Source: an uncultured Erwinia sp. | GTDB taxonomy: Bacteria > Pseudomonadota > Gammaproteobacteria > Enterobacterales > Enterobacteriaceae | NCBI GenBank assembly: GCA_945290265.1 | Contig: CALYQW010000007.1 | Location: 49,472 to 113,471 of the forward strand | Direction: 5' to 3' | DNA: 64,000 nt | Shown: positions 24,831-49,954 of the stretch, in pieces | Layout of the letters: each line of letters opens with the position of its first letter | Position numbering within the stretch: position 1 is the first letter of the stretch | Notes under the pieces: generated by a model | The model's input: only the letters and a program-made list of their open reading frames with translations | What the model was told of the DNA's origin: nothing | Databases searched by the model: none | Program-made: the position numbers and the translations under genes

Positions 24831-25571
24831 TTACCTTTCCTGATAACGCTGCAATATTTGTAACAGTGCGTCTGCGACATCTTTCTGATTCTGCTGAATA
24901 AAAAAATGTCCGCCATCAAACAGCTGCACCTCCGCCGGTTCAGTAAAAAGTGCCTGCCACTGTGGCAATTCGGCTGGCGGCACATCCGCATCCTGTCGCC
25001 CGCTAAACACCGTGACGGGCAGTGGTAAGGGGGGGATCTCGCCCGGACGATACTCCTCCACCAGGCGAAAATCGGCGCGCAGGGCTGGCAGAACCAGCGC
25101 CATCAGCTCCTGATGGGCCAGCACTTCCGGCGGCGTGCCGCCGTAGTCCTGCAAACGGCGGATAAACGCCTCGTCGGAGAGCGGCGACAGTGGCGGAACG
25201 GTGCGCGTCAGTTGCAGTGGCCGACAGCCCGAGGCAATAAAATGCAATGGCAAACGCTGATCGTGCGCCCTGAGCGCCAGCATTAATTCCACGGCTAAGC
25301 GGCAGCCAAGACTGTGGCCAAACAGTAGCCAGGGTTTATCCAGCGGCAGATGCTGGCGCAGCGCCTCCACCACCTGATCCATACGCTGCAACGGGGCTTC
25401 GCGCAGGCGCGACCCGCGTCCGGGCAGTTGCGCTGCGCAGAGTTCCACCCATGACGGCAGACCGCTGACAAAGGGCTGATAGTGGCTGGCACTGCCCCCG
25501 GCAAACGGCAGGCAGATCAGACGTAATTCGGCCACCGGACGTGGCCGAAATGTGTGAAACCAGAGTGACAT
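24831..25571 (-). CDS. Type II thioesterase of the NRPS/PKS cluster
   Basis: Stand-alone alpha/beta-hydrolase of the RifR/GrsT type that clears misprimed carrier domains or trims stalled intermediates. The 246 residues contain LICLPFAGGSASHY, LPGRGSR, the nucleophile motif GHSLG (serine about residue 87), the acid-region DADVP and GGHFF with the catalytic histidine. The start MSLWFHTF is preceded by GAGGA; the frame runs 22 codons further upstream into the NRPS. It lies 13 bp after the large NRPS and is the last gene of the array. Direct product release is less likely, because a terminal TE domain exists in the other NRPS. Confidence 0.93.
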   Translation of the reverse strand: MSLWFHTFRPRPVAELRLICLPFAGGSASHYQPFVSGLPSWVELCAAQLPGRGSRLREAPLQRMDQVVEALRQHLPLDKPWLLFGHSLGCRLAVELMLALRAHDQRLPLHFIASGCRPLQLTRTVPPLSPLSDEAFIRRLQDYGGTPPEVLAHQELMALVLPALRADFRLVEEYRPGEIPPLPLPVTVFSGRQDADVPPAELPQWQALFTEPAEVQLFDGGHFFIQQNQKDVADALLQILQRYQER

Positions 25572-25584
25572 ACAGTTCCTCTTA

Positions 25585-28500
25585 TTAACGACGTCTGCGC
25601 CGCAGCAATGCCTCACGGCGCTTGCTGATACGCGCATCAGCCTCGGCCATCAGATCCTGTTGTGGTGCCTGGTCACCCAGCCACGCGGCGAAAGCAGCAA
25701 TGGTGGGATACTGAAATAAAGCCACCACCGGAATATCGCACTGTAACGCCAGCTGAAGCTGATTTTTGACCTGCAACAGCAGCAGCGAATGACCGCCGAT
25801 ATCAAAGAAATTATCGCTGGTACCGGGCGTTTCCCCCTGCAGCACGCTGGCCCATACCGCCGCCACCTGCCGCTCCAGTTCAGTGGATGGCGCAATATAG
25901 CCCTGTTTACGTTGCGCCAGCATCGCCGTAGCGGGATCCGGCAACTGACGGCGATCCAGCTTACCGTTTGGCGTCATTGGTAGCCGCTCAATGGCAATCC
26001 AGGCTGCGGGCTGCATATAGCCCGGTAACCGGGCCTGCAAATGCTGGCGCAGCTCCTCGGGTTCCGCTGCGGGGTATGCGGAAACGTAATAGGCGGCGAT
26101 GCGTTTTTCATTCTGCGCATCACTGAATACCGTTACCGCCGCCGCCTGAACCGCCGGATGACTGAGCAGTACCGCACTGATTTCTCCCGGTTCTACCCGC
26201 ATACCGCGAATTTTCACCTGATCATCGCGCCGTCCGATCAGACACACCACGCCATCATGGCGCACCTGTCCGATATCACCGGTAAAATACAGCAGGTCAT
26301 CCGCCTGACCGCTAAAGGCGTTAACGATAAACGCCGGTGCCTGTCGCCCGCCCTGTAAGTAACCCAGCGACGGAAAGCGGGTACGGATAACGATCTCTCC
26401 CGGCTCACCGATACCGCACTGCTGAAGCTGCGCATTCAGCACCAGCACCTGGCTGGCACTGATAGCCTGCCCCACCGGTAACGCCTGCGGCAAACGTGCC
26501 GCTACCGGTACGCGATAGCAACATTTCGCCAGCGTGGTTTCCGTCGGACCATACAGATTGACCACCTCCGCCTGCGCGCTGACCTGGCTGCGCCACTGGC
26601 GTACCAGATCTGATGGCAGCAACTCTCCGGCAAAAAACAGCCGCTGCAGATCCGGCAACGCAGTCACCTGTTCCGCCGCTAACAGCCAGGATTTCGCAAT
26701 GGTCGGCACGGTATGAAAGCTGGTGATACGCTGCTGCCTGAACCACGGGAACAGCGTTGCTGCCGACAGATCCTCCTCCGACGGCGGCAGGCAGAGCGTT
26801 GCACCACTGATAAGCGGCGTCAGAATATCGCGCAGTACCACATCGAAACTGAGCGCAGTTAATTGCGCACAGCGATCTTCTGTCCCGATGGCAAAGGTAT
26901 CGCGCTGCCATTGTAAGAAATGCGCCAGCGCCTGCTGTTGACCAATGATCCCCTTTGGCCTGCCGGTGGTGCCGGAGGTAAAGAACAGGTAACAGGCCGC
27001 CTGCGGATCCACCGTCGGTGCAACAACCTCAGCCTGCTGCACGGCCCAGGCATCAATGTGAGTAACCTGACGCCAGCGCGGATCGGCGCAGATATCATCG
27101 TCGCGGTTTCCCCCAGGCATCGTCACGCACAGCAACTGCTGCGGCTGAGCCTCATCGAGCATCGCCTGACGGCGCGCCAGTGAAAGATTTTTATCCAGCA
27201 GCAGCATCACCCCGCCCGTCTGCATCACCGCTAACATCGCCGCAATCAGACCAAAACTGCGCGGCCCGTGGATAGCAATCACCTCACCGGGCCGGATCGC
27301 CGATGCGCGCAGTTGGGCGGCATAACTGGCGGCGGTTTCCGCCAGCGCCTGGTAGTGCCACTGACGCCCAGCCTGCTCAATCGCCGTCCGTGCCGCCACG
27401 CGCTGTGCCGTGTCGGCAAACAGCGCCGGAACGCTGGTTACCTGCGCACCAGAGAGCGACACCCGTGGATCGGGCAATATCTGGCGCGCGACAGGGGTCA
27501 GCAGCGAGTAATCCTGCAGCGGACGCGTCACGTCATCGGCAATCTGCTCCAGCAGCACCATAAATTGCTGCGCCAGCGCCTGAATCTGTCCGTGCCCATA
27601 GCGCGCCTGTGGCCAGACCCACTCCAGCACCAGCTCACCCTCACGCTCCTGTGCATACAGGGTCAGGGCAAATTTCGCCTGCGGTTGCGTCAGCCTGCAC
27701 TCGCGAACCGTGATGCCATCAAGTTGCTTATCGCCCTGTGGGGCGTTGAGCATATTGAGCATCACGTCAAAAACCGGATTATGATTCAGGCGGCGCTCCG
27801 GGCGCAGCAGTTCGGTCAGCCGCTCAAACGGCATTTCCTGATGCTCCCAGGCATCCAGACAAACCTGGCGCACCTGCGCCAGCAGCGTGATAAATGTCGG
27901 ATTACCGGTCAGATCCATGCGCAACGGCAGTGGATTAATAAAGCAGCCCAGCAGCGGCTCGGTTTCCGGCAGGGTGCGCCCGGCAACCGGGGCACCGATA
28001 ATCAGATCCTCCTGGGTCGTCACGCGATTCAGCAATAATCCAAAGGCGCTCAACAGCAGCATAAACAGGCTGACCTGCTGCTGCTGGCAGCAGTGAGACA
28101 GGCGCGCCAGGGTGGCGGCATCTAACGTCAGAATGAGGCTGTCGCCCTGGGTCCCGGCTTGTTCATCCTCGGGGAAATCGGCAGGCAATTGCAACAGGGG
28201 CAGATCTCCCTGCAACTGTTGCAGCCAGTACCGTTCCAGCTGCTGCATCCGCTCACCGCTAAGCTGCTCACGCTGCCAGGCCGCATAATCACTGTAATCC
28301 ACCGCCAGCGCGGGCAGCGTGGTCGGGCTGGCAGACTGCAGCTGGCGGTAATGCTGCACCAGCTCATCAATCATCACGCCCACCGACCAGCCGTCAGCAA
28401 TAATATGATGCAGGGTCAGCAGCAGCAGATACTGCCGCTCTGCACAGTGCAGCAGACTGACGCGCAGCAGCGCATCCTGTTCGAGGCGGAAAGGACGCTG

Positions 28501-31500
28501 CGCCGAAGCTTCTGCCAGCGCCGTAATGCGCGCCTGACGCCCGGCTGCATCCAGTGCCCGCAGATCGTGGTAATCGACAGGCTGTGGCTCGAACGGAAGG
28601 ACAGTCGGTGCGCCATCTTCATCGCGGAACCGGCTACGCAATACCGCATGACGCTGGCGCAGCTGGTCAAACGCCTGCTGCAGTGTCGCGATCGACAGCT
28701 CACCTTCCAGTTGCAATGCGCTGAACAGGTTATAGGCGCTGCTGTCCGGCATCAGTTGCTGCATAAACCAGATTTTCTGTTGCGCGAAGGACAGCACCCG
28801 CTCGGCGCTGTCTGGCTGCGGTGGAATGGTCAGGGTCGGGGCATTCAGCGGTGCACACTCCCCCAGCACGACAGCCAGCTCCGCCACTGTCGGGTGTTCA
28901 AACAGCGTATGCAGCGTTAAGTCCGGCGCAAAGCGGCGGCGCAGACGCGCCACAACCTGGGTTGCCGACAGCGAATGACCGCCAAGGGCAAAAAAGTTGT
29001 CTTCTACGCCGATCTGACTGATACCCAGCACACCGGCAAATATCGCCGCAATCTCCGCTTCCACCGGGGTGCGCGCTGCAACCGTCTCAGTGGCGGTTAC
29101 CGCCGCAACTGGTAGCGCCAGCAGCGCTTTTTTGTCGATTTTGCCATTCGGCGTTAGCGGCAGCGCCGTAAGCAGCTGAATATGGGCGGGCACCATCCAG
29201 CCGGGTAGCGCAGCCAGCAGATGCTGGCGCAAATGGGCGGGGGTCAGCGCGGGATCGTTCGCCACCACAAAGGCCGCCAGCGATGGCGTTTCGCCCTCGC
29301 GCGCCAGTACCGTCGCCGCAGCAACCTGCTGGTGTTGCAGCAGATGCTGACCGATCTCCCCCAGTTCGATGCGGAAGCCGCGAATTTTAATCTGGTCGTC
29401 CAGCCTGCCGAGATAGGTGATACGGCCATCACCCTGCCATTGCGCTAAATCCCCGGTGCGGTAGAGCCGCGCCTGCGGATCGTCGCTGAACGGGTCGGTA
29501 ATAAACTTTTCACGGGTTAACTCCGCGCGCCCCAGATAGCCCAACCCCACCCCCGCGCCGCCAATCCATAGCTCACCGGGCGTACCTGCCGGGCAGAGCG
29601 CAAGATGGCTGTTAAGAACGTATAGACGGGTATTGCTGACGGGGCGTCCAATGGGGGGATTTTCCTCGTCGGCGGTCACGCGATGCCAGGACACCACATC
29701 GGTACATTCGGTGGGGCCGTAGGAGTTAATCAGCACGCAACCGCTGTGCTTCAGCCACGGCCGCAGCGTATGCATCGCGATGCTTTCTCCCCCGAGCCAC
29801 AGCTGTTGCAGGCTGGTGAGCTGCGGCCACAGGTCGCGCTCCGCCACCAGCGGATAAAAGGCACTTGGCGCACAGTTAATGCGCGTCACCTGATGCTGCG
29901 CAATTTCGCCGGCAATCTGCGCGGCATCGTACTGCGCATTTGCCGGGAGCACCACACAGCCCCCCTGCAACAGCGGTGACCAGAGGTTCTTTTGCGTCAG
30001 ATCAAACGAGAGAGAACTGATGATTAACGGGCGATCGGCTTCCCCGGCCTGTAGCTCGCCCAGATACCAGTGCAGCAGGTTATTCACCCCGTGATGCGTC
30101 ACCTGCGCCGCTTTCGGACGGCCGGTTGAACCGGAGGTATAAATCACATACAGCAAATGTTCTGTTGCCGGAATGGCGGCAAAGGTGGGTGGCGTCGGCG
30201 GATACGCGGTTAGCGCCTGGCGCAACGCGGGATCGTCGAGCGTCAGGGTATTCACTTCAGCCGGGACGCTGTCATAAAGCGCTGCTGCCACCGCGCTGTG
30301 GGTTAGCAGCAGGCTAACGCCGCTGTCTTCCAGCATAAAGCGTATCCGCTCTGCCGGATAATCCGGGTCAATCGGCACATAGGCCGCACCGGTCATCACA
30401 ATCGCCAGCAGGCCGGTCAGCACTTCGCCACAGCGTGGCATCGCCAGCCCCACCAGCGTATTGGAGCCTGCGCCCCGGGCCTGCAACGCATGGGCTAACT
30501 GGCTCGCCTGCTGACACAGTTGCGCATAACTCAGTTGCCGATCGCCCCACTGCACGGCAACGCGCTGCGGCGTTAATGCCGCCTGACGCAGGATCTGCTG
30601 CGGCAACAGCGCCTCCTGCGGCCAGTGATGAGGGGCCGGGTTGGCGCACTGCAGCAGTTGCTGCTGCTGTCCGGCATCCATCATCGCCAGCGCACCAACC
30701 GCCGCATCCGGCTGGCGCAGCAGGCTGTTGACCAGTTCGCTGAACCGCTGCGCCAGTTGGGCAATATAACCGGCATCGAATAACGCCGCGTTGTAGTCAA
30801 ACTGGCAGCGTAATTCGTCCTGCTGCTCCACCACATTCAGCAGCAGCTCAAACCGTGCAGGCGTGAGTGGATGCGGCAGCCTGGTAAACTGACATTCCCC
30901 GACAGGCGCGGGTTGTAGCAAATCGTTATCCATGCTGAACATAATTTGGAATAGCGGCGCGTGGCGCGTACTGCGCTCAGGATTTAACGCTTCCACCAGT
31001 TGCTCAAACGGCACGTCCTGGCGCATTTGTGCATCAATATTGACCGCTTTCACCTGGCACAAAAAATCGCGGAAGCTGAGGTCAGGATCGTACGCCACAC
31101 GCAGTACCAGGCTGTTAACAAAAAAACCGACCAGCGGTGCCAGTGACGCGTGGGAGCGGTTCGCCACCGGTACGCCAGTGACGATGTCCTGACTGCTGCC
31201 GTGCCGGGCCAGCAGCAGGGAGAAGGCGGCGTGCAGCAGCATAAACAGCGTGGCGTTTTCATCTGCTGCCAGCTGGCGTAATGCCTGCGTGCTCTGCGCC
31301 GTCAGCGAGAAACAGTAACGTTCACCGCTGCCGCTCTGCTGTAACGGACGCGGGTGGCTGAGCGGCAGACTGTGTACTAACGGCAGTCCCGCCAGCTGTT
31401 CCTGCCACCAGCTAAGCTGGGTGTGATAAGCGGGACGCTGCACCCATTCACGCTGCCAGTGCGCGTAATCGGCATAGTTCACCGGCAGCGCAGGCAGTGA

Positions 31501-34500
31501 CGGCGCGTCTCCGTTGAGTAACGCCTGGTAAAGCGTGCGGAACTCCGCGATTAACACGCCCATCGACCAGCCATCCGCCGCGATATGGTGCACCGTCACC
31601 AGCAGCGCCCCTTCACTGGCACCGGTGCGCAGAAACGCGGCGCGCAACAGTACATCTGCTGACAGATCAAAGGGCTGCCGCGCATCACGCACCGCCGCCG
31701 CCTGAATCGCCTGCTGGCGCTCCCCTGCGCTTAGCAGACTGAGATCAACCTGATCGAGGTGGAAGCTGAACGCCGGACGGATCAGCTGTTGCACCTCGTC
31801 CTGTTCCCCGGTAAATACCGTTCGCAGCGGTTCGTGACGGGCGATCAGCAGACGGAACACGCGCTCCGCCAGCATTGGCTGAAACTCGCCGTCAACGCGC
31901 AGCAGCGCGGAAATATTATACAGGCTGCCGTCAGCCATCAGTTGATCAAGCATCCACAGGCGCTGCTGAGCAAAGGAGAGCGGCAGGCGGATCTCAGCCG
32001 CCGGATCATCACGCGTCTGCGGCAGCACCGGTGGCAGCAACTCCCCTCCGCGTTTGCTGGCAATCCTCGCCGCCTGCGCAGCCAATACCGGCACTTCAAA
32101 CAGATCGCGAATGTTCAGCTCCACCTGCATATCATCGCGAATTGCAGCCAGCAGGCGCACGGCTAACAGCGAATGCCCTCCCAGCGCAAAAAAGCTGTCG
32201 TTCGCGCTGACTGCCGGGGCATCGACAGGCAGCAGCGTGGCCCAAATCGCGGCCAGAGCAGCTTCGTCGCCGGCCTGTGGGGCAATAAAGTGTTCGGTAT
32301 CACGGGAAAAATTCGGCTCCGGCAGCGCTTTGCGGTTAATTTTTCCGTTGGCGGAGAGCGGCATCACCTCCAGCGCGATCAACAGTGCGGGCACCATATA
32401 GTCCGGTAACTGCTGATGGAGTGCAGCGCGCATTTCTGCCTCCCACTCCGCTGACGCTGCCATGCCCGGCTTAAGGCTGTAGTAGCCCAGCAGGCGCTGC
32501 TCCCCGTGCATGTCGGCACGGGCAACTACCACCGCCGCGCTGACCAACGACAAGGCAAGCATTTGCTGTTCAATTTCCCCCAGCTCAATGCGCAGACCGC
32601 GAATTTTCACCTGGTCATCAATACGCCCAAGGTATTCAATATTGCCGTCTGGCTGATAACGCACCAGATCCCCCGTGCGGTACAGCACGCCGTCCGGCTG
32701 GCTGCCAAACGGATCCGCAAGGAAACGTTCGGCGCTGAGTTCAGGGCGATTCAGATAGCCACGGGCAATACCCACGCCGCCTAAACAGAGCTCTCCCGCC
32801 AGTCCGGGCGGCAGTAACTGCATGCGGCGGTTAACTACATAGCAGGTGGTGTTATCAATCGGTTTTCCGATGGGAATGGTGCGATAACGCTCGCCAGCGT
32901 CGCCGCGCCACCAGGTGACGTCAATCGAGGCTTCGGTAGGGCCATACAGGTTCCACAACGCCACCTGCGGCAGACAGCTCAGCGTATCCTGCCAGGTTTC
33001 AAGCGGCAGTGCCTCGCCGCTACAGACAATCGTTTTCAGGTCTGGCAGGGAGTGGGCCGGAATGCTGTCGATAAATAGCCGCAGCATGGAAGGAACGAAA
33101 TGCACCAGTGTGACCCGCTGTTGTACCATGATCTGATGCAGACAGGCCGGATCTTTATGTCCACCGGGACGGACAAACACCAGCCGCGCGCCCACCAGCA
33201 CCGCCCACAGCAGTTCCCATACCGAGACATCAAAGCCAAACGGGGTTTTCTGGAGCAACGTATCTTCGGCAGTCAGCCCGAACGCCGCCTGCATCCAGGC
33301 AAGGCGATTGACCACCCCGCGATGCTCCAGCATAACGCCTTTGGGATTGCCTGTTGAACCCGAGGTATAGATTACGTAGGCCAGATGACGTGAGGTTAAG
33401 CCCAGCGCCGCCATCGACAGCGCCGCAGTGGACTGCTGACGCAGTGCGCTCAGGGTGTCGGCGTCATCCAGTATAATCACCTGCACGGGTTGCCCCGCCA
33501 GCAGCGTGCCTAAGCGCGGTGCCAGTGCCTGAGTGGTTAATACCACCTCCGCCTGCGCGTCTGCCAGCATATACGCCAGACGGGCATCGGGGTATTCACT
33601 GTCGAGTGGCAGCCAGGCTCCACCAGCCTTCAGCGTACCGAGTATCCCTGTCAGCATCGCGCAGGAGCGCTCAATAAACATCCCCACCCGCCGATCCGGC
33701 CCAACGCCCTGTTGACGTAAGTAATGCGCCAGCTGGCTGGCCTGCCGCTCAAGCTGCTGATAGCTCAGCTGCTGTGCCTCATCGGTAACGGCGATGGCGT
33801 GCGGCGTGCGGGCCACCTGCTGTTCAAACAGCACATGCAGCGTTTGCCGATCGTCGAAAGGTTTGGCGGTAGCATTCCACTGCTCTAACTGCGCACGGTC
33901 GCTGTCACTCACCAGCTGCAGCGCCTCCAGCGCCGTGGTCCCTGCCAGCAGCTGCTGGTGTACGCGGATCAGGCAATCAATAAGCTGTTGTGCGGCGATA
34001 ACCCCCTGTGGGTGCGAGCATTTAGCATGCAATTTGCCATCGTGATGATAATAGAGATAAAACTGTACCGCCCCTCCATCCTCGCTGGTCCAGCTGTTGA
34101 CCAGTTCCAGCTGGTGGTAGTGATGAAGCGCGCGCGAATAGTCATGAAAATTATAAATAAAACGCAGGCCGTTGCTGGTCAGCCCCAGATGACGCGCAGT
34201 CAGCTGGGTTAAGGCTTCAAACCCCTTGCGCTGACGCTGAAATTCCCGTCCCTGCTGCAGCAGGCTGGCAAAATCCTGCACCCCGTTAAAAGGCAACACA
34301 AACGGCACCAGGCTGGAAAAGTTGCCGAATACCTGCGCCGAAGTTGCGCTGCGATGATTCACAATTTCCTGCAGCGCGATGCCTTCGTCATAGCCATACA
34401 GCTGCCCTGCAACCCAGGCGAACAGCGATTTAAAGTAAAAAGGCGGCGTAATGCGTGAAGTGCGGCAAAATGCCGCCAGCCCCTCAGTGGGAACCGGCAC

Positions 34501-35100: not shown

Positions 35101-35138
35101 GCTCACCTGCCACTAGTAAAAGGGTAAACCGGCTGCAC

Positions 35139-37234: not shown

Positions 37235-37241
37235 CCTGTGC

Positions 37242-38432: not shown

Positions 38433-38992
38433 TATGCGCTCTCATCAGTTAGCGGAGTGTCCGATACGGAGGTGGCCAGCGCTTTCTGACGCTGCTGCTG
38501 ACGTTGATAACGCTTCTTCAGCACCCGCGCATCGTTGGTGCGAAACAGGTAATCCCATAAGGTGATGTAGAACGAGAAATTACACTTCACGTTGCGGTGG
38601 TGGCAGAGATGAAATTTGCCGATAGGAATAAAGCGCGTGATGCTGCCATTGATGTTCGGATTGTGATCCAGCACGTTACGCGAGAGAAACACCTCATAAA
38701 CGTAGTGAAACGCCAGCAGGATCGCGCCATAAATCGGATCAAAAATCGTCAGAATAATCAGTGGAATGGTAAAGGTAATATACACATCCATTGAAGAACG
38801 CCATTCACCAAACCAGAAGAAATAGTCGTGCCACGGCGGCAACTGGCTGTCGCCGTAGTTGTAGGCGTGGTGTTTGATATGGCAGTAGCGAACAAAGTTA
38901 TACTTGAAATTGATGTGTGCAATAACGTGCATGGTGTAGGACCACAGGGTCCATAACAGAAAATAGACCACCAGCTTGAGGACAAAAATCAT
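38432..38992 (-). CDS. Fatty-acid-hydroxylase-superfamily membrane di-iron enzyme
   Basis: A 186-residue membrane protein with histidine clusters typical of the sterol desaturase/fatty acid hydroxylase superfamily: HVIAH (22-26), HIKHH (38-42), His96, His110 and HLCHH (128-132). Several hydrophobic segments (WTLWSYTMHVIA; VYITFTIPLIILTIF; AILLAFHYVYEVFL) place it in the inner membrane with a cytoplasmic iron site. The start MIFVLKL is preceded by GGAGAGG; the frame is open 16 codons upstream. It probably hydroxylates an acyl chain or peptide intermediate. It sits between the C-A-T-TE synthetase and the flavin monooxygenase, with a one-base overlap to the latter. Confidence 0.85.
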   Translation of the reverse strand: MIFVLKLVVYFLLWTLWSYTMHVIAHINFKYNFVRYCHIKHHAYNYGDSQLPPWHDYFFWFGEWRSSMDVYITFTIPLIILTIFDPIYGAILLAFHYVYEVFLSRNVLDHNPNINGSITRFIPIGKFHLCHHRNVKCNFSFYITLWDYLFRTNDARVLKKRYQRQQQRQKALATSVSDTPLTDESA

Positions 38993-39045
38993 AACCCTCT
39001 CCTGACTAACCGTGAATGATGCGCGGCTGCAGTGCCGCACGGAGC

Positions 39046-42000
39046 TTAAGAAAACTGGCGCAGCACGTCCCCGACCTTCGGGTGATGTACGATGCCAAAA
39101 TGATCGGCATCAACCTGATGCAGATCGACCTGTTCCACTAACTGCTCCCACACCCCTAATGCCTCATGGGAATCCCGCGCGCGGAACAGCACAATGCGAT
39201 CCAGTGCCAGTTTGTTAACCGGCTGCGGCTGATAGCGTTTAAACGCGTGAACCGTATGGGTATACACATCCAGCAGGCGCTGAATTTCCGCATCGCTGGT
39301 GCCTGCCGGCACCAGGGCATGCGCCCGCAGTTGCTGGCAAATATCCTCGTGGCGATAGCTTTTGCCCTGCCACGCCAGCAGCTTCTTTTCATCAATCTGC
39401 CGTCCGGGTACCGCAGCCAGTTGCAGCACAAAGTTGAACAACACGATTTCATCGGTGGAAAAGCGACTTTTGGTGAGATAAGTGTCAATCATCGACAGCT
39501 CCTGCACCTCCTCCCCGGCCTGCTGTAACAGCCGCGCGATTTCATAGGCAATAAAACCGCCCATGGACCAGCCCCCCAGCCGATAAGGTCCCTGCGGTTG
39601 TAGCTGGCGAATTTCATCGAGATAGAAAGCGGCCATACTTTCGACGGTGTCATAGGGTGAATCAGGATCGACCAGCGCGTGCGATTGCAGCGCGTAGAAA
39701 GGCTGGTTTTCCCCCAGATGGCTGGCCAGCGTAAAGTAGCAGCTGACATTCCCCCCCACCGGATGCACGTAGAACAGCGGCGTTTGACTGCCTTTCTGCT
39801 GAATTTTCACCATGCAGCGATCGCTGGCGCTTTGCTCTCCCAGCTGAATGCGCTCCAGCTCATGGGCTAAATCGCCGAGGCGCGGGTATTCAAACAGCAG
39901 GCGCAGCGGGATGGTCTGCTGAATTTGCGCCTTGATGCGCGTTGCTACCTGAGTCGCCAGCAGCGAGTCACCGCCGATGGCAAAAAAGTTATCCTGTCGG
40001 CCCACCGCCGGACGTTGCAGCAGCGTCTGCCAGCACGCTGCCAGCATCTGCTCCATCGCACTCTGCGGTGGCTGAAAAGCCTCTGCCGTTTCAGTGGCAA
40101 AAACCGGGGCGGGTAAACGTTTTTTATCGACTTTACCGTTAACCGTCAGCGGAATGCTGTCGAGGGTCACCAGCGAAACCGGCACCATATAATCCGGTAA
40201 AGTTTCCGTGAGCCACTGACGCAGCGCCGCTTCCTGATACGTGCTGTGGTCTGCCACCAGCCAGCTCACCAGTTGCTGCCCACCGTGTGCCGCCTCCTGC
40301 GCCAGCACCAGCGCTTTTTGTACGCTGGGGTGCTGCGTCAGCGCAGACTCTACTTCGGCCAGTTCGACGCGGTGCCCGCGGATTTTCACCTGCTGATCGT
40401 CACGTCCGGCAAACTCCAGTAAACCATCGCGACGCCAGCGCGCCTGATCGCCGGTCTTAAACAGCATGCCGGGGGCAAACGGGTTCGCCAGGAAACGCGC
40501 TGCCGTCAGCCCCGGCTGGTTGATATACCCCAGCGCTACGCCGGTACCGCCAATCCAGAGCGCACCAAAAACCCCCACCGGCAGCGGCTGCATCTGGCTG
40601 TCGAGAATATAGACCTCAACGTTATCCAGCGCGGTGCCTACCGGCATCGCACCGCTGGCGACGTAATCCGCTGGCGGTTCAAACATGGTGGCGGTGACCG
40701 TGGTTTCCGTCAGGCCGTAATCATTGATCCAGCGGATCGCGCCACGGGTCAGCTGCTGCCAGTGATTCCATACCTCGCCAGCTGCCTGCTCACCGCCCAC
40801 TATCACCAGTTTCAGGTGATCAGGCACCGGAATGCGGCTGTGACGCAGGTCGGCGACGATATTGTTCCAGTGCGCGGTGGTCAGGTTCATTACGCTGATA
40901 TTTTCCTGTGCCGTCCAACTGAGGAATGCACCGCTCTCTTCCAGACGCTTCTCTTTCCACAGCACCAGGGTCGCCCCGCGCAATAAGGTCGGGAAAATCT
41001 CCTGAATCGACACATCAAAACCAATCGACGTGAACTGCAATACCCGATCGTCTGGCTGCAGATCGAAGCGTTTAATGATGTTAGCGCAGTGGTTCACCAC
41101 ATTTCGGTGGCTGACCATCACCCCTTTCGGCTGTCCGGTAGAGCCGGAGGTATAGATGACGTACATCAGATCGTCAGGCGCATTGAGGCACAGCAACGGG
41201 GCGCTGGAAAAATCAGCCAGCTGCGTTGCGACCTCCGCCAGGGAAAAACAGGGTTGCGGGCAGTCGAGGCTGACATCATCCCCACGCAATACCAGCGCGG
41301 CCTGCGCGTTGCTGAGCATGTACTGAATACGCTCGGCGGGATTCGCCGGATCGACAGGCAGCCAGGCGGCACCGGCTTTCAGAATACCCAACAGTGCCAC
41401 CATCATATTCAGCGAGCGATCGGTCACCAGGCCGACAACCGCTCCGCGTCCAACGTTCTGCCCCTGCAGCCAGCGGGCAAACTGACAGGCCTGCTTTTCC
41501 AGTTGATGATAGCTGAGCTGCTGCTGACGATAACGCACCGCAATCTGCTGCGGCGTGCGGGCCGCAACCTCGCTAAACAGACGATGCACGCAGTGGTCTG
41601 AACCGTTGGCAACAACAGGCCCACGGCACTGCCCGTCCAGCAGTTGCTGCCGCTCCTGCTCAGAGATAATCGGATAGCTGGCAATCGGTCGCTGCGGGTC
41701 GGCAACAATCCCCTGCATCAGAGCATCAAGATGTTGCAACAGGCGCGTGACGGTTTCGCTGTCGTACAAATCGGTGTTGTAATCCAGCGCCAGCTGCAAC
41801 TGTTGTTCAACCAGTGAAAAGGTCAGCGTCAGTTCAAAAGTGGTGGTCCGTTTTTTAAACGCGAAAGGCTCAATGGCCAGATCCGGAGCCAGCTGGTCAT
41901 ATTTTTCCGCCTCCAGCAGCATCACCATCGTCTGGAAAAACAGGTTATGGCTCAGGTTACGCTGGGGTTTTAGCGCCTCAACCAGCTTTTCGTAAGGGAC

Positions 42001-43056
42001 TTCCTGGCGGGCAAATGCGCCAAAGGCGATTTTGCGATTCCGCTTGAGCAGAGTAATAAAATCGGGATTGCCCTGCAGATCGGATTTCAACACCAGAGTG
42101 TTGATAAACAGGCCAACCAGTTGGGTGAGTTCAGGTCGGTTACGGGTGGTAATCGGCGTGCCCACCGGAATATCGTCCTGCCCGGTATAACGTTGCAGCA
42201 ACACCTGCCAGGCCGAATACAGGGTCACAAACAGCGTCACGCCCTGGGCTTTGCTCAGCGCCACTAATCCTTCGGTTAACGCGGGACTGAACGTATGGCG
42301 CACGATTGCGCCGTTGTTGGTCATCACGCTGTGACGCGGCCTGTCCATCGGCATTTTCAGCACCGGAGTTTCTCCCCCCAGCTGGTTTTTCCAGTATTCC
42401 AGCTGACTGGTATACTCATCGCTTTGCAGCCGCGCCTGCTGCCAGGCCGCATAGTCGGCATACTGTAACGGCAGCGGATCCAGCGTCTCCCCCTGCTGAT
42501 TATAAAAGGCAAACAGGTCGCGCATGATCAGCTTAAGCGAATCAAAATCGGCAATGATGTGGTGAATGGTAAACAGCAGCAGATGGTGATTTTCAGCCAG
42601 CCGCCAGGCCTGGGCGCGTAATAACGGCCCGTGCTCCAGTGAAAAGGGCTGGTTGCCGACCGCTTCCATCTGTTGTCGCGCCGTCTGCTCCTGCACTGAC
42701 CCAGGCTGGGCGCTGAGATCGGTTAACGGAATATCCAGCGTCAGCGATGGCGCAATACGCTGCTGCGGCTGCTCCTGTTCTGGTGGCATCACGAAGGTGG
42801 TACGCAGTGACTCATGACGCGCCACCACGCTATTCAGACTCGCCTGCAGGCGCGCAATATCCAGGTTACCGCGCAGATGAAACGCCATATTGATATTGAA
42901 GTGGATCAAATCCGGCTGGAGCTGATGCATAAACCAGATGCGGTACTGATCGGCGGACAGTGGCAGCGGTTGCTGGCGGCTGATACGCGTGAGGGGCAAG
43001 GGTTGTAACATAATACTCTCTCTGTCAGTAGTATCGGTTGAGGCGGCAACAGGCAT
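39046..43056 (-). CDS. Terminal NRPS module C-A-T-TE
   Basis: A 1336-residue synthetase. The C domain fills residues 30-450; its active-site motif reads HHIIADFDS, with F replacing the usual G of HHxxxDG. The A domain has TSGSTGQPKGV (about 632) and a core A5 reading NDYGLTE instead of NxYGPTE; the code positions read D V Q N I G D V T, not assigned. The T domain has GGDSL (Ser1031). The TE has GWSMGG (Ser1164) and a C-terminal DADHFGIVHH. It is the only synthetase here with a TE, so it probably adds the last residue and releases the product. The start at 43056 has a strong GAGGGGGTG; an ATG 15 codons later (43011) also has a purine-rich site. Confidence 0.93.
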   Translation of the reverse strand: MPVAASTDTTDRESIMLQPLPLTRISRQQPLPLSADQYRIWFMHQLQPDLIHFNINMAFHLRGNLDIARLQASLNSVVARHESLRTTFVMPPEQEQPQQRIAPSLTLDIPLTDLSAQPGSVQEQTARQQMEAVGNQPFSLEHGPLLRAQAWRLAENHHLLLFTIHHIIADFDSLKLIMRDLFAFYNQQGETLDPLPLQYADYAAWQQARLQSDEYTSQLEYWKNQLGGETPVLKMPMDRPRHSVMTNNGAIVRHTFSPALTEGLVALSKAQGVTLFVTLYSAWQVLLQRYTGQDDIPVGTPITTRNRPELTQLVGLFINTLVLKSDLQGNPDFITLLKRNRKIAFGAFARQEVPYEKLVEALKPQRNLSHNLFFQTMVMLLEAEKYDQLAPDLAIEPFAFKKRTTTFELTLTFSLVEQQLQLALDYNTDLYDSETVTRLLQHLDALMQGIVADPQRPIASYPIISEQERQQLLDGQCRGPVVANGSDHCVHRLFSEVAARTPQQIAVRYRQQQLSYHQLEKQACQFARWLQGQNVGRGAVVGLVTDRSLNMMVALLGILKAGAAWLPVDPANPAERIQYMLSNAQAALVLRGDDVSLDCPQPCFSLAEVATQLADFSSAPLLCLNAPDDLMYVIYTSGSTGQPKGVMVSHRNVVNHCANIIKRFDLQPDDRVLQFTSIGFDVSIQEIFPTLLRGATLVLWKEKRLEESGAFLSWTAQENISVMNLTTAHWNNIVADLRHSRIPVPDHLKLVIVGGEQAAGEVWNHWQQLTRGAIRWINDYGLTETTVTATMFEPPADYVASGAMPVGTALDNVEVYILDSQMQPLPVGVFGALWIGGTGVALGYINQPGLTAARFLANPFAPGMLFKTGDQARWRRDGLLEFAGRDDQQVKIRGHRVELAEVESALTQHPSVQKALVLAQEAAHGGQQLVSWLVADHSTYQEAALRQWLTETLPDYMVPVSLVTLDSIPLTVNGKVDKKRLPAPVFATETAEAFQPPQSAMEQMLAACWQTLLQRPAVGRQDNFFAIGGDSLLATQVATRIKAQIQQTIPLRLLFEYPRLGDLAHELERIQLGEQSASDRCMVKIQQKGSQTPLFYVHPVGGNVSCYFTLASHLGENQPFYALQSHALVDPDSPYDTVESMAAFYLDEIRQLQPQGPYRLGGWSMGGFIAYEIARLLQQAGEEVQELSMIDTYLTKSRFSTDEIVLFNFVLQLAAVPGRQIDEKKLLAWQGKSYRHEDICQQLRAHALVPAGTSDAEIQRLLDVYTHTVHAFKRYQPQPVNKLALDRIVLFRARDSHEALGVWEQLVEQVDLHQVDADHFGIVHHPKVGDVLRQFS

Positions 43057-43143
43057 GCCACCCCCTCAGGGAAAGTGATGCGCCTGATAGCCAGTCCGTT
43101 ACGTCATGAAATCGTTATTATTTGTAGCGTCCCTGCCGCGTGA

Positions 43144-46100
43144 TTACCCACTCAACTTTGCGTCAAGTTCTTCCAGTGACAGACCCTCAGTCAGGCGCAA
43201 CAGCTCCGCCATCTCAGGATCTTCAACGTCCGCGACTGCCGGCGTAGGTGACTGTCCGGCCAGCGCACTATCAATTTGTGCCGTGATGCCGCGGATAGTG
43301 GGGTCCTCAAACAGCACCTCAATACTGAGTTCAATGCCCCACTGCTCCCGCACCTGTGAAATCAGTTGGATCGCCACCAGCGAGGTACCGCCAAGGGCAA
43401 AAAAGTCTTCGTCATGCTGGAGGGTTTCCATGCCGAACAATACCCGCCAGATGGCGGCAACCCGCGCTTCGGTACTCTGCGGCACTTCCCCAGTGACAGG
43501 AACGGGGTTCGTCCCTTCTGGCGAGGCCGCTGCCGCCGTGACAGCTGCCACAGGGGCAGCTGCAGGGGCTGCCTCCGCAACAGTTTGCTGCGGATAAATT
43601 CGCTCAATCCAGTAATGCTGCCGCTGGAAGGGATAGCCCGGCAGAGCGATACGCTGACCCTGCGTCTCAGGCAGTTCGAGGACGACACCGTGACGCCACA
43701 GCTGGCCGATGCCCGTCAGCCAGGCATGCAGGTCGCCGCTTTTTTCTTTCGGATGGCGGGACAGCGCCAGCGCACGTTGTGGATTGAGCTGCGCCATTTG
43801 CGCCTGCGCCAGACTGGTCAGCACCGTGCCTGGCCCACATTCCACCAGTACCACATCAGGACGCGCCAGAAGTTGCTGCAGTCCCTGATTAAATCGCACC
43901 GTGCTGCGCAGGTGATCGCGCCAGTAGCGCGGACTGACCGCCTCTTCTGGCGTAATTTCCCGTCCGGTCAGATTCGCTATCCAGCGCCCAACCGGCGCTT
44001 GCCGCGGGCTGTTTGCGACCACTGCCTCAAAGGCGTCCAGCACCGGATCCATCATTGCCGAGTGAAACGCATGCGAAGTCACCAGCAAACGGGTGGTGAC
44101 GCCAGAATCCTGTAATGCCTGCTGAAAGAGGCTGATTTCGGTTTCCGGCCCGGCGACCACTGCTAACTCAGGCCCATTGACCGCCGCAAGCGACAGCGCA
44201 GGCCAGTCGCGCAGCAGAGCAACAAGCGGGGCTTCCGCCAGGGAAACGGATAACATTTTCCCTGGCTCTACCTGCTGCATCAGCTGACCGCGCGTGGCGA
44301 CCAGCCTGAGCGCAACGTCCGGGGTGAATACGCCACACAGCGTGGCCGCCACCAGTTCTCCAACACTGTGACCAAGCATATGGCTAACCTTAACGCCCTG
44401 CGCCAGCAGAGTACGGGCCATGGCGTACTCAATACAGAACAGCGCAGGTTGCGTCACTGCCGTACTGTTGAGCCACGCCAGTTGCGCTTCATCCGGCGCG
44501 TCTTGCGTCATCAGGGGATGCAGATCCAGATCAGACTGCTCACGCAGTATCCGGAAACACTGGCTGAGCTCATCGCGAAAAACGGGCAACGACTGCCACA
44601 GCTGTTGCGCCATGCCCCAGTATTGCGATCCCTGGCCGGGAAACAGCAGCGCCACTTGCGCTGAGGCCAGTGCTGGCGAGGGCTTGCTGACGCCGCGCTG
44701 GAGTTTTTCGCGAGCCTGGTCGAGGGTGCTGGCAGTGAAAACCGCGCGCCAGTCGAAAATTTGTCGCCCGGCGCGCAGCGTGTGCGTGACATCCTGCAAA
44801 TTAAGAGTTGGCTGATGGTGCAGATGTTGCGCCAAATCGGCAACCGCCTGCTGTAACGCCGCCTCACTGCGGGCGGACAAGGTCAGCAACTGCACCTCAT
44901 TATTGCCCTCCCCCGCGCTGGCCTGCGCCACAGGTTGCGGAGCTTCTTCCAGAATCAGATGTGCATTAGTGCCGCCCATACCAAAGCTACTGACCGCCGC
45001 ACGACGCGGATGCGCGTCGGTTGCAGCCCAGGGTATCAGCGTGGTGTGGGGATAAAACGGCGTTTGGGCAAAAGGAATATTCGGATTAGGTCGGGAGAAG
45101 TTTATAGTCGGCGGCAGCTGCTTATGATGCAAAGCCAGCGTGGCTTTGATCAGTCCGGCAATCCCCGATGCTGCGCCCAGGTGCCCAATATTGCCTTTCA
45201 CTGAACCGAGCGCGCAATAGCCTTTGCGTGAGGTTTGCGACTGCCAGACGCGGGTCAGCGCCTCAATTTCAATCGGATCGCCCAGCGGCGTACCGGTACC
45301 GTGCGCTTCCACCAGCTGGATGGTGTCCGCATGCACCTCTGACAGGCTCAGCGCTTCTGCAATGGCTGCAGATTGCCCCTGCACGCTGGGTGCGGTAAAG
45401 CCCACTTTATCGGCACCATCATTATTGATGGCGCTGCCTTTGATCACCGCGTAAATGGTGTTGCCATCACGCTCAGCGTCTTCAAGGCGTTTTAATACCA
45501 CCACGCCGAGGCCATTGCCAAACACGGTGCCTGCAGCCTCTGCATCAAATGGCCGGCAGTGGCCATCCGGCGACAGCAAGCCGCCCGCCTGCCAGGGATA
45601 ACCCGTTTCCTGATCGGCCAGTACCGATACGCCGCCAGAAATGGCCATATCACATTCGCCCGCCAGCAGGCTTTGCACCGCAGTATGTACCGCCACTAAC
45701 GAGGTCGAACATGACGTCTGAATGGCAATACTCGGGCCACGCAAATTGAGCTTATACGAAAGGCGGGTAGTGAGATAGTCCTTCTCATTACCGTGGCGCA
45801 CCGCCATTTCACCCAGCGATGCCACCAGCCCCGGCTGGCTATAGATATTCAGTAAATAGCTGCTGGAAAACACCCCGGCATAGACGCCAATGCGCCCCTC
45901 ATAGCGGGCGGGCACATGCCCGGCGTGCTCCAGCGCATGCCAGCAGCACTCCAGAAAGAGTCGCTGTTGCGGATCGAGGATTTGCGCTTCACGCGGCGTA
46001 AGGTGAAAAAAATCGGCATCAAATTGCGCGATATCTTCGAGACAAAATCCGCAGCGGACGTAATCCTTATCGGCAATTTGTTTTTCTGTCACGCCATTGG

Positions 46101-46242
46101 CACGCAGCGTCTGATCATCAAAGGAAGAAATCCCCTCCTTTCCCTGACAAAGATTTTCCCAAAATGTTGCGAGATCGGGCGCGCCGGGAAATTGACCACT
46201 CATACCAATAATAGCTATTTCACTACCGTTTAGTTGAGACAC
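43144..46242 (-). CDS. Type I polyketide synthase module KS-AT-ACP
   Basis: One minimal extension module in 1032 residues. KS: TSCSTS with Cys178, EAHGTGTPLGDP and NIGHLGAASG supply the Cys-His-His triad. AT: FPGQGSQYWGM, GHSVG with Ser626, and HAFHS, the pattern usually seen for malonyl-CoA. ACP: ALGGTSL with Ser954. There is no KR, DH or ER, so a beta-keto unit is expected unless acted on in trans. The start is probably GTG at 46242 (GCGAGG nine bases upstream); a TTG three codons earlier is in frame but too close to the ribosome site. It is the first gene of the leftward array, 87 bp before the C-A-T-TE gene. Confidence 0.94.
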   Translation of the reverse strand: MSQLNGSEIAIIGMSGQFPGAPDLATFWENLCQGKEGISSFDDQTLRANGVTEKQIADKDYVRCGFCLEDIAQFDADFFHLTPREAQILDPQQRLFLECCWHALEHAGHVPARYEGRIGVYAGVFSSSYLLNIYSQPGLVASLGEMAVRHGNEKDYLTTRLSYKLNLRGPSIAIQTSCSTSLVAVHTAVQSLLAGECDMAISGGVSVLADQETGYPWQAGGLLSPDGHCRPFDAEAAGTVFGNGLGVVVLKRLEDAERDGNTIYAVIKGSAINNDGADKVGFTAPSVQGQSAAIAEALSLSEVHADTIQLVEAHGTGTPLGDPIEIEALTRVWQSQTSRKGYCALGSVKGNIGHLGAASGIAGLIKATLALHHKQLPPTINFSRPNPNIPFAQTPFYPHTTLIPWAATDAHPRRAAVSSFGMGGTNAHLILEEAPQPVAQASAGEGNNEVQLLTLSARSEAALQQAVADLAQHLHHQPTLNLQDVTHTLRAGRQIFDWRAVFTASTLDQAREKLQRGVSKPSPALASAQVALLFPGQGSQYWGMAQQLWQSLPVFRDELSQCFRILREQSDLDLHPLMTQDAPDEAQLAWLNSTAVTQPALFCIEYAMARTLLAQGVKVSHMLGHSVGELVAATLCGVFTPDVALRLVATRGQLMQQVEPGKMLSVSLAEAPLVALLRDWPALSLAAVNGPELAVVAGPETEISLFQQALQDSGVTTRLLVTSHAFHSAMMDPVLDAFEAVVANSPRQAPVGRWIANLTGREITPEEAVSPRYWRDHLRSTVRFNQGLQQLLARPDVVLVECGPGTVLTSLAQAQMAQLNPQRALALSRHPKEKSGDLHAWLTGIGQLWRHGVVLELPETQGQRIALPGYPFQRQHYWIERIYPQQTVAEAAPAAAPVAAVTAAAASPEGTNPVPVTGEVPQSTEARVAAIWRVLFGMETLQHDEDFFALGGTSLVAIQLISQVREQWGIELSIEVLFEDPTIRGITAQIDSALAGQSPTPAVADVEDPEMAELLRLTEGLSLEELDAKLSG

Positions 46243-46423
46243 AAACTTCAACCTCGCCAGAAAAAAAAGACATTAATAAAATTAATTTATTTACAAATCA
46301 CGCTACAATCTCGCAATATTAAATTCAAGCACTATTTAGAAAATTACAACCACATTGCCTTTATATACTTATAAAACAATAAATTAAAAATATTCACTTC
46401 TGTATTACATATAAGAGATACCT
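46243..46423. promoter_or_regulatory. AT-rich divergent promoter region of the biosynthetic cluster
   Basis: The 181 bp between the divergent PKS and acylase genes is strikingly AT-rich, while the genes on both sides are GC-rich. It contains several TATAAT-like strings (TATATACTTATAAAAC) and short inverted AT repeats (ATTAATAAAATTAAT). The only divergent gap in the cluster, it should hold both promoters. The base composition suits H-NS-type silencing of transferred DNA, an inference. No regulator gene lies in the cluster. Confidence 0.6.
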
Positions 46424-48799
46424 ATGAGTAATGGTAAAGTATTTAATTCCATTTCATTTACATTAAGAAAGATATTGTGCTGGCTTGTGGCCGGATGTTT
46501 GCTTGTTTTTATTACCGCCAGCGCAATTGCATTGCTGTTGTTTTACCGGAGTTTGCCTGCAACAGAAGGCGTAGTCAGACTTCCTGCCCTGTCCAGTCCG
46601 GTAAAACTGCAGCGTGACGAACGAGGCGTAGCGGAAATTGCCGCAGGTAACCGGGGGGCAGCCAGTTTTGCCCTCGGATATGCCCATGCCCAGGATCGTT
46701 TTTTTCAGATGGATCTGTTACGCCGTAGTGCCGCAGGAGAATTAGCTGAGCTACTGGGTGCGGACGCCCTGACAGAAGACCGCCGGCATCGTCCCTGGCT
46801 CCTGCGGGAAAAGGCCAGAACGATGGTGCAACATCTGCCCGCCGCACAGCGAGCCCTGTTGCAACAGTACACCGCTGGCGTGAATGCCGGATTGATGCAT
46901 CTCGGCAGTCGTCCTTTTGAATACTGGCTGCTACGGGAAAAACCTCAGCCCTGGCGGGCAGAAGATGCCTTACTCACTATTTATGCACTGTATCTCGATC
47001 TGCAGGAAAATCAGGCCGAGCGGGAATATGCCCGTGGCTGGATAAACAGTCATAGCAGTCCGGCCCAGACAGCGCTGCTGCTACCGGGATCCAGTCGCTG
47101 GGATGTGCCATTGCTCGGCCGCCCCCCTGCGCCGCCGAAGATCCCTGCTTACCCACCAGAGTGGTGGGGGAAACGCTCTCCGATCCATGTTCCCATCCCC
47201 AGTGAGGCAATGAGAGGGAGTAACGGCTGGCTGGTGAGCGGCCGTCGCAGCATAACCGGCAAGGCGATGCTGGCCAATGATATGCATCTGGAGCTGATGT
47301 TACCCACGCTGTGGTACCAGACCACCCTGCTTTATACGATGGACAACGGGCAAACCAGCCAGCAGTCAGGCATCACATTGCCGGGACTACCCATGATGGT
47401 ATCTGGCAGCAACGGGTATATCTCATGGGGATTTACCAACGCCTATATCGATACCTTTGACTGGGTAACATTACCCGCACGCGCCGCGTCCTGGCCTCTG
47501 CGTCGTGAAGTGCTTACCGTCAGCCACGGCAAACCACAGTATCTGGACGTTCATCTCAGCCCCTGGGGGCCGGCCTTTTCAACCGCACAGGGCGAAATGG
47601 CGATGCACTGGACAGGTAGCATGCCGGGGGCAGTAAATCTGGATTTCCTGCCGCTGGCGGAGAGTCGTTCGGTTAATGACGCGCTGCGCGCTGCGCCACA
47701 TTTTGGTCTGCCGGTACAAAACCTGCTGGTTGCTGATAATCAGGGCCATATCGGCTGGACGCTGGCAGGCTGGCTTCCTGATCGGGCCGTTGCGGGAGAA
47801 AAAAACAGTTTTCCACTCAAGGCGGAAGACCATCCTGAATGGAGTGCCACACCTATGCCTTCATCCCGTTATCCACAGCTGATTGATCCGCAGGACGGTG
47901 TTATCTGGGCTGCGAATAATCGTCAGGATTTTGCTCCCGGCAATGAAGCTTATGATGATGGAGGGGCCGATATGGGCCCGCGCGCGTTCGAAATCAAGCG
48001 CCAGCTAATGGGTCAGCCACGATTGAGCCACGACGATATGCGTAATATTCAATTTGATGATCATGCCGTACTGATGGTCGCCTGGCGTGACCTGCTGTTG
48101 CCAATGCTGCAGGCCAGCCATCCTCAGGCTGGTTCACCACGCCAGCAGGCTCTTTCCGCTATCACTCAGTGGTCTGGTAGTGCAAGTGCCGATTCGACAG
48201 GCTATACCGTGCTCGCGGCCTGGCGTGAGGCGCTCTACCAGGGATTATTTGCTGATTTTGATCGGCAACTGGGGGAGCAGTGGCACAAAGCCAGCTACCT
48301 GCGAGCCAACACCCGTTGGGATGAGAGCGTGATGCGTTTGATGGAAAGTGACGCCAAAACCTGGGTACCGGATGGGTATGACGACTGGCCTGATTATGCC
48401 CTGCAACAGCTCGATTACGCGCTGCAGACCATCCAGGCCAGCTACCCGCTGGATCAGGCGCAGTGGGGCAGGATGAATACGGTACGTATTGAGCATCCGA
48501 TTGCGCAGGCGCTGCCATTTCTGCGCCGCTGGCTGGCCGCTCCCGCGCTGCCGCAGTCCGGCGATCATCATGTGCCGCACGTCAGTCAACCGGCCTTTGG
48601 TGCCTCCGAGCGCCTGATTGCCTCTCCGGGAGATGAGGCACATGCTACCCTCTCACTGCCCGGTGGTCAGAGCGGAAATCCGCTCAGTTCGTGGTTTCTC
48701 GACGGTTTCGACAGCTGGTATCACGGCACGCCGCGCGCGCTGGTTGCCGGAAAGGCGCGTCATACCCTGCAGCTGATGCCACAGAAGGAGACGCCGTGA
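46424..48799 (+). CDS. Membrane-anchored penicillin-acylase-family (S45) Ntn-hydrolase
   Basis: A 791-residue amidohydrolase. An N-terminal hydrophobic segment (about residues 17-42: ILCWLVAGCLLVFITASAIA) preceded by lysine and arginine should act as a signal anchor, placing the enzyme in the periplasm. The alpha part contains FALGYAHAQDRFFQMDLLRR. Autocleavage and catalysis are expected at G-Ser266 in RGSNGWLVSG; LANDMHLELMLPTLWYQ, GSNGYISWGFTN and GGQSGNPLSSWF are the expected beta-chain motifs. Divergent from the synthase operon, it probably removes an N-acyl group after export, as PvdQ does for pyoverdine. It could alternatively confer resistance or quench acyl-homoserine lactones. Confidence 0.88.
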   Translation: MSNGKVFNSISFTLRKILCWLVAGCLLVFITASAIALLLFYRSLPATEGVVRLPALSSPVKLQRDERGVAEIAAGNRGAASFALGYAHAQDRFFQMDLLRRSAAGELAELLGADALTEDRRHRPWLLREKARTMVQHLPAAQRALLQQYTAGVNAGLMHLGSRPFEYWLLREKPQPWRAEDALLTIYALYLDLQENQAEREYARGWINSHSSPAQTALLLPGSSRWDVPLLGRPPAPPKIPAYPPEWWGKRSPIHVPIPSEAMRGSNGWLVSGRRSITGKAMLANDMHLELMLPTLWYQTTLLYTMDNGQTSQQSGITLPGLPMMVSGSNGYISWGFTNAYIDTFDWVTLPARAASWPLRREVLTVSHGKPQYLDVHLSPWGPAFSTAQGEMAMHWTGSMPGAVNLDFLPLAESRSVNDALRAAPHFGLPVQNLLVADNQGHIGWTLAGWLPDRAVAGEKNSFPLKAEDHPEWSATPMPSSRYPQLIDPQDGVIWAANNRQDFAPGNEAYDDGGADMGPRAFEIKRQLMGQPRLSHDDMRNIQFDDHAVLMVAWRDLLLPMLQASHPQAGSPRQQALSAITQWSGSASADSTGYTVLAAWREALYQGLFADFDRQLGEQWHKASYLRANTRWDESVMRLMESDAKTWVPDGYDDWPDYALQQLDYALQTIQASYPLDQAQWGRMNTVRIEHPIAQALPFLRRWLAAPALPQSGDHHVPHVSQPAFGASERLIASPGDEAHATLSLPGGQSGNPLSSWFLDGFDSWYHGTPRALVAGKARHTLQLMPQKETP

Positions 48800-48960
48800 T
48801 TCCGGCAGGCCGACATTCACCGGAGCCATTATTAAAGCGCGATTGTTAAGGCCTGGTTTTCCCTGCATCACGCAGGCTGTTGCCGGGAAACGCTGGTACC
48901 AATAACGGGTTGCTGTTGAGCAATCTGCTGATTACCCTATAAAAACCCTGTGAGGTCATA

Positions 48961-49745: not shown

Positions 49746-49954
49746 AACTTCTTCCTCCTTTTGAAGTGTTGCTAAAGGCTTCCCAGCCTGCAAAATACGG
49801 GTATTAAAATTTACTTTTCACTGCACCGTTTGAGCATACCATCGCCAGATCCACAGATAAAAGGCGGGTTCCATTTGATTTGTTTTTTCAAGATCCCTCC
49901 TGAAAGAGATTAACGTTAACAGTGCATATCTGATGCCCACTAACTCACCACCGG

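Follow-up and report, generated by a model that had tools for sequence, protein, structure and literature searches.

The flavin enzyme MupA of the mupirocin pathway is reported to turn over, in vitro, only a beta-keto substrate bound to an acyl carrier protein (ACP), which it hydroxylates at the alpha carbon (PMC10953402), and GNAT-type self-resistance is reported for the non-ribosomal peptide odilorhabdin (PMC8749412) and for paenilamicin (PMC9054821). Here we describe a locus in which a predicted MupA-family enzyme and a GNAT acetyltransferase accompany a hybrid of nonribosomal peptide synthetase (NRPS) and polyketide synthase (PKS). It lies in a 64,000-nucleotide stretch of an uncultured Erwinia sp. 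(contig CALYQW010000007.1, positions 49,472 to 113,471, assembly GCA_945290265.1), hereafter the window. A sequence-only reading had proposed a nine-gene hybrid cluster at 24.8–48.8 kb; all nine genes are present as open reading frames (ORFs) in the ORF list and in Pfam/NCBIfam scans, with active-site motifs for the ketosynthase (KS), acyltransferase (AT), ACP, adenylation (A), thiolation (T) and thioesterase (TE) domains, the acylase and the phosphoesterase, and a GNAT gene makes the tenth. The hybrid character is clear from an open KS-AT-ACP gene and open condensation (C)-A-T modules that keep their active-site residues.

We propose that a single secreted small molecule is the joint product of the ten genes and that it passes through a prodrug stage; we give this whole model a probability of roughly 0.6. 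In our best model the product is N-acyl-Ser-Hse-aa-(alpha-hydroxy-beta-keto)-aa (Hse, homoserine; aa, amino acid), made as an inert lipopeptide. The earlier interpretation is partly supported, including its logic of export followed by deacylation. It had also suggested looking for the same gene order across Erwiniaceae. The same ten genes in the same order do recur in a genome of the same family and another genus (G016), but not only in Pantoea or Erwinia relatives, as two Pectobacterium genomes (P. betavasculorum NCPPB 2795, contig NZ_JQHM01000002.1, and Pectobacterium sp. PL152) carry them as well.

Eight genes are transcribed on the minus strand in the order KS-AT-ACP, C-A-T-TE, membrane hydroxylase, luciferase-like monooxygenase (LLM), metallophosphoesterase, major facilitator superfamily (MFS) exporter, three-module NRPS (NRPS3) and type II thioesterase. 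Using likely starts, neighbouring genes overlap by up to 4 bases or lie up to 87 bases apart, close enough to make one operon likely. These starts are ATGs near 38992 for the hydroxylase and near 25571 for the type II thioesterase (whose ORF opens at 25637; the start was chosen from a homologue and the upstream sequence), and one near 37234 for the phosphoesterase, the longer ORFs being mechanical. NRPS3 (25585..35106) reads, by Pfam, motifs and alignment codes, as divergent C-A(Ser)-T-C-A(homoserine-type)-T-C-A-T and has no TE, the PKS module (43144..46251; Pfam, motifs) as KS-AT-ACP, and the terminal NRPS module (39046..43056; Pfam, motifs, alignment) as C-A-T-TE with the C motif HHIIADF. 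The single type I TE and the operon position point to an assembly order of NRPS3, then PKS, then C-A-T-TE. A separate type II thioesterase (24831..25571; PF00975, 138 bits; GHSLG and GGHFF motifs) would serve for editing. The absence of a TE from NRPS3 and the five genes that separate it from the PKS gene could also mean two products from one operon, one made by the PKS and C-A-T-TE proteins and another by NRPS3; with a single type I TE in the set and the genes together in all four clusters, we consider this very unlikely.

Substrate codes were taken from an alignment of 12 A domains at the Stachelhaus positions. They read DVWHVSLIDK, DLKNWGSDVK and DVRHFALLAK for the three NRPS3 modules and DVQNIGDVTK for C-A-T-TE, and each is identical in the three clusters aligned (window, G016 and P. 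betavasculorum). The third may resemble an aminoadipate code. Ser as the first residue, as proposed earlier, is supported by DVWHVSLIDK, which we take to be a Ser code; DVWHLSLVDK and DVWHMSLVDK are given as Ser codes, with variation at positions 299 and 330, in PMC12283262. For the second module, a laxaphycin study has DLKNFGSDVK called homoserine by antiSMASH 4.1.0 and left without a prediction by version 5.1 (PMC7524897). PMC12283262 lists two further codes, DLKNVGSDVK and DLKNLGTDVK, under Hse/Hsl domains. DLKNWGSDVK is one position away from the reported DLKNFGSDVK and DLKNVGSDVK, and the second A domain of NRPS3 probably activates homoserine. Of the N-acyl-Ser-X-Y chain of the sequence-only reading, Ser thus stands and X can be refined to probable homoserine. 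Searches of PDB sequences with the second and third NRPS3 A domains returned many A domains and no substrate call. In the PKS module the HAFH motif suggests a malonyl-specific AT, and Pfam found no ketoreductase, dehydratase or enoylreductase domain, so that the module should leave a beta-keto thioester; both observations support the single malonate proposed before. In our model, the divergent starter C domain of NRPS3 would attach an acyl chain to Ser, after which NRPS3 would add homoserine, as the code match suggests, and a third amino acid. KS-AT-ACP would then add one malonate and, from its domain content, leave the beta-keto thioester, and C-A-T-TE would add the last amino acid and release the product by hydrolysis or by a ring closure such as a tetramate.

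Two oxidations are predicted on this chain. The LLM (37242..38432, minus strand), a free-standing flavin mononucleotide-dependent enzyme of the MupA/Atu3671 family, scores 451.6 bits against the TIGR04020 model, well over its curated cutoff of 244.45. By analogy with MupA, it most likely hydroxylates the alpha carbon of a carrier-bound beta-keto chain, here that of the ACP-bound intermediate. LLM-type flavin enzymes include Baeyer-Villiger oxidases, and the enzyme might instead insert an oxygen into the beta-keto chain to give an ester or glycolate unit. As the name-giving MupA alpha-hydroxylates in vitro (PMC10953402), we find this outcome quite unlikely and keep the alpha-hydroxyl in the model. 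A KS-AT-ACP-type gene with an LLM gene directly after it was also seen in Pantoea stewartii plasmid pCN101, where the LLM is free-standing, and in Streptomyces sp. KN37, where it forms the start of an 882-aa protein; these were the only two opened among 79 plasmid records with an LLM match. A further hydroxyl may come from the membrane di-iron enzyme of the fatty-acid-hydroxylase type (38432..38992, minus strand; PF04116, 49.6 bits, cutoff 31), judging by its family; ten histidines are invariant in all five aligned homologues. The calcineurin-type metallophosphoesterase (36350..37234, minus strand; PF00149, 51 bits) keeps the metal motifs DxH, GD, GNHD and GHxH and has no hydrophobic segment.

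The acylase gene (46424..48799, plus strand) belongs to the S45 (penicillin-amidase) family, with 452 bits to PF01804 (cutoff 21.3) and a GSNGW sequence, the GSN nucleophile motif, at residue 265. It had been called a divergent S45 acylase: it is indeed divergently transcribed, whereas its sequence is not divergent at Pfam level, the sequence-divergent part of the cluster being the first C domain of NRPS3. The AT-rich 172 bases between the acylase and PKS genes (46252..46423) showed no conserved operator in an intergenic alignment of three clusters, and a promoter scan of them was not above chance (one found; shuffle mean 3.5). The acylase carries one N-terminal hydrophobic segment and the GNAT none, which places the former outside and the latter inside the cytoplasm, by inference. 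The MFS pump (35139..36353, minus strand; PF07690, 98 bits; top NCBIfam match a Tet efflux model at 83 bits, cutoff 475) would export the acyl-capped, inactive form, from which the membrane-anchored acylase would strip the cap outside the cytoplasm. An S45 acylase and an acylated NRPS precursor also recall the pyoverdine route, so the product could be a siderophore whose hydroxyls bind metal and whose peptide precursor is matured by the acylase as by PvdQ. The acylase does show a weak similarity of 31.2 bits to the PvdQ equivalog model NF051460, far under its cutoff of 950 bits; a scan of the cluster genes and ten flanking ORFs found no TonB receptor, ornithine hydroxylase or dihydroxybenzoate enzyme, and we hold a siderophore to be improbable.

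The GNAT gene (48961..49467, plus strand; Pfam GNAT) follows the acylase gene on the same strand and adjoins it in all four clusters. Its protein is 86% identical in P. betavasculorum, where it lies about 260 bases from the acylase by coordinates, and 87% in G016; in PL152 it comes in two pieces (86% and 77%) with a frame break between. Inspection by eye shows, directly 3' of it, an inverted repeat and T run resembling a terminator, which is absent from the pattern-scan list. An antisense ORF at 48846-49163 was dismissed as spurious: it overlaps the GNAT gene, has no Pfam or NCBIfam match, and in relatives its tblastn matches lie on the strand opposite the GNAT gene. As a candidate self-protection enzyme, the cytoplasmic GNAT would acetylate active compound re-entering the cell, a second lock after the acyl cap; we hypothesize that the two caps occupy the same amine. 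Such protection suggests a compound that harms its producer and hence bacteria, and speaks against a phytotoxin or other host-directed metabolite, made by the same assembly logic for another target. Both named carriers belong to Pectobacterium, and one of them, P. betavasculorum, is a plant pathogen (PMC10991766); these facts favour a host-directed role, which we regard as somewhat unlikely.

A number of points weigh against the model of an acyl-capped, GNAT-guarded Ser-homoserine prodrug. In the literature search no match was found to the exact homoserine-type code DLKNWGSDV, nor to DVRHFALLAK and DVQNIGDVTK, exactly or as near variants. The starter C domain has diverged too far for its type to be assigned: it scores 38.8 bits against Pfam Condensation (cutoff 30.6), aligning only to profile positions 95-322 of 456, carries an HHLVFDG motif, found no PDB sequence match at E <= 0.01, and gave a fold model of mean pLDDT 37.3 that was left unused. 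LLM enzymes can also carry out other oxygenations, and the acylase substrate could be something else. The all-helical model of the hydroxylase is weak (mean pLDDT 54.8), with no PDB match at E <= 10. Nothing explains the presence of the phosphoesterase, whose relatives at 41-48% identity (G508, G387 and G304) had no other cluster gene nearby by tblastn in any of three stretches, one of them only 5.1 kb long. All seven genomes compared contain further GNAT matches (29-52% identity), so the role of the GNAT may be unrelated to the cluster.

The cluster is rarely found. In its two intact copies, those of G016 and P. betavasculorum, protein identity to the window is 74-95%; that of PL152 is interrupted by frame breaks, which may be assembly errors. 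With the hydroxylase as query, a genome search found it in two of 295 genomes of the family (its own and G016), one of 37 of the genus (its own) and one of two of the genus of G016. In the class, seven of 369 genomes matched at E <= 0.001, with only its own and G411 above 30 bits, and at 1e-20 the sole match was its own in both the order (1/394) and the phylum (1/398); genomes were sampled for family, class, order and phylum, and these samples overlap. A pattern scan of genome contigs, seeded on six exact 8-residue words and so liable to miss more distant relatives, gave 42 matches. Relatives are encoded at three of these, in P. betavasculorum (84% identity), in Pectobacterium sp. PL152 (83%) and in Paenibacillus ehimensis (51%). 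Plasmid records held no match to the hydroxylase; the PKS DNA matched 299 records, with 60-95% identity at the best places and less than 80% of the query covered in each. For the C-A-T-TE protein there were 528 matching records, and identity stayed below 60% at every best place. E. coli genomes, searched in near mode with 35139-46251 of the window, gave no match. The Paenibacillus and G411 (43%) homologues were rejected as cluster carriers, as neither stretch yielded another cluster gene. In the former (L003, 9017-20034) the hydroxylase homologue sits, by eye, amid TrpB-, asparagine-synthetase-, radical-SAM- and aminotransferase-like ORFs, an unrelated biosynthetic-looking set; in the latter (L013, 4869-10510) it adjoins an MFS-type gene, near arginine decarboxylase and SpoIIE/HAMP proteins.

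Comparison of the surroundings indicates that the cluster has moved between genomes. In the window the block sits between ruvX/yqgF and pilT. These two genes are adjacent in G119 and G293 of the same genus (about 52 and 24 bases between match ends) and about 660 bases apart in G222; all three genomes lack a match to the hydroxylase. The other carriers have neighbours that differ from those of the window and from each other (ORFs judged by eye, without family search): sarcosine-oxidase-like and glyA-like ORFs in G016, phosphonate-like and restriction-like ORFs in PL152, and an integrase-like ORF in P. betavasculorum, known on the TE side only because the contig ends beyond the GNAT gene. Differing neighbours and adjacent ruvX and pilT are stronger evidence of mobility than protein identity. 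Cluster proteins of the window are 79-95% identical to those of G016, against a median of 76.7% for chromosomal genes (six genes, 69.1-83.0); chromosomal medians are 75.0% to P. betavasculorum (seven genes, 68.3-94.0) and 83.35% to same-genus G119 (14 genes, 67.0-95.3), all taken from those of 21 genes tried that fell inside the fetched stretches. Synonymous divergence (dS) to G016 is 0.36-1.02 in nine cluster comparisons versus 0.77-1.84 in four chromosomal genes; to P. betavasculorum it is higher, 0.75-1.52 for cluster genes, with no chromosomal control. Since these ranges overlap, the P. betavasculorum values are higher and the acylase and type II thioesterase are the least conserved cluster proteins (74-80%), the identity argument is only supporting.

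The genes appear to be maintained. Nine of them are open in the window, G016 and P. betavasculorum, and the ratio of nonsynonymous to synonymous divergence (dN/dS) of 0.036-0.143 over 18 comparisons (nine genes against the two relatives, the GNAT left out and NRPS3 represented by its first ~1916 residues) argues for purifying selection on all nine.

Elsewhere in the window, a small minus-strand ORF between the GNAT gene and pilT (49529-49747, by eye) may be a remnant of whatever carried the block in. A tRNA-Phe gene at 62183-62258 is likely an island integration site, and 200 bases from it lies an ORF (62458-63468) that looks like a tyrosine recombinase by eye. A perfect TATCAG hexamer repeat (9.2 copies) fills the window end, 63946-64000; the contig also ends there, and the repeat may therefore mark an edge of the sequencing or assembly. 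An 18-base tandem repeat of about four copies lies at 20465-20539.

Tentatively, we suggest that the product may belong to an undescribed class: a deacylated Ser-homoserine peptide with an alpha-hydroxy-beta-keto (or derived tetramate) core, guarded by an acyl cap that comes off only outside the cytoplasm and by a cytoplasmic GNAT that would cap the freed amine again, and encoded by a mobile ten-gene block found in a few genomes of one family, including two of Pectobacterium. The sequence-only reading had found no match to a Pantoea or Erwinia product (andrimid, pantocin, dapdiamide, herbicolin), and in literature searches on antibiotic clusters of P. betavasculorum, on tailoring genes and acylase or prodrug routes in Pectobacterium, and on Erwinia hybrid clusters we found no description of the cluster. 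Older literature is said to record an undefined antibiotic of beet-pathogen strains. We draw no link between it and the cluster, because carbapenem and phenazine clusters are present in P. betavasculorum too (PMC6963963). A P. betavasculorum genome paper gives antiSMASH names for NCPPB 2795 that include teixobactin, syringomycin and N-myristoyl-D-asparagine; its section on these names does not describe the cluster, and NRPS and PKS are absent as terms from the main text (PMC10991766). The cluster is complete, conserved and seldom encountered, and it yields a testable hypothesis for a product in which two residues and one oxidation are specified. Should this hypothesis hold, it would provide an undescribed small-molecule class, a case for asking whether acyl-cap and acetyl-cap protection act at the same amine, and a clue to the means by which P. 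betavasculorum may act on neighbours or host.

How does the locus compare with known systems? With pyoverdine and PvdQ it would share a capped precursor, a membrane-linked activating enzyme and activation outside the cytoplasm. ClbP of colibactin is a peptidase of another family than the S45 acylase. The likeness to that system would lie in a precursor activated outside the cytoplasm (PMC9889268), again capped and served by a membrane-linked enzyme. OatA of odilorhabdin, PamZ of paenilamicin and EdeQ of edeine are comparable by gene context, an acetyltransferase gene accompanying a non-ribosomal peptide cluster, and would be analogues of the GNAT. Malonomycin combines a peptide, one malonate and a final amino acid, as predicted for the product here, with a possible tetramate. 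For the malonomycin tetramate a terminal condensation-like domain is proposed (PMC11310079), whereas the cluster described here has a type I TE. MupA belongs to the same TIGR04020 family as the LLM, is likewise free-standing and acts in trans on a carrier-bound chain; mupirocin, however, is a trans-AT polyketide, while in the window the AT is part of the PKS module itself, which belongs to an NRPS hybrid. An orphan cluster on Pantoea stewartii pCN101 (NZ_CP046586.1, L048) shares a KS-AT-ACP-type gene with a free LLM gene directly after it, an MFS gene, a nearby GNAT gene and two NRPS genes, and also carries an AMP-binding protein. It differs in that its PKS is 38% identical, its LLM 45-46% and its GNAT only 26% over about 60 residues, and no acylase, hydroxylase or phosphoesterase was found by tblastn in the 33-kb stretch. 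The cluster is thus ordinary in kind, an orphan hybrid, and unusual in its combination of genes and its rarity.

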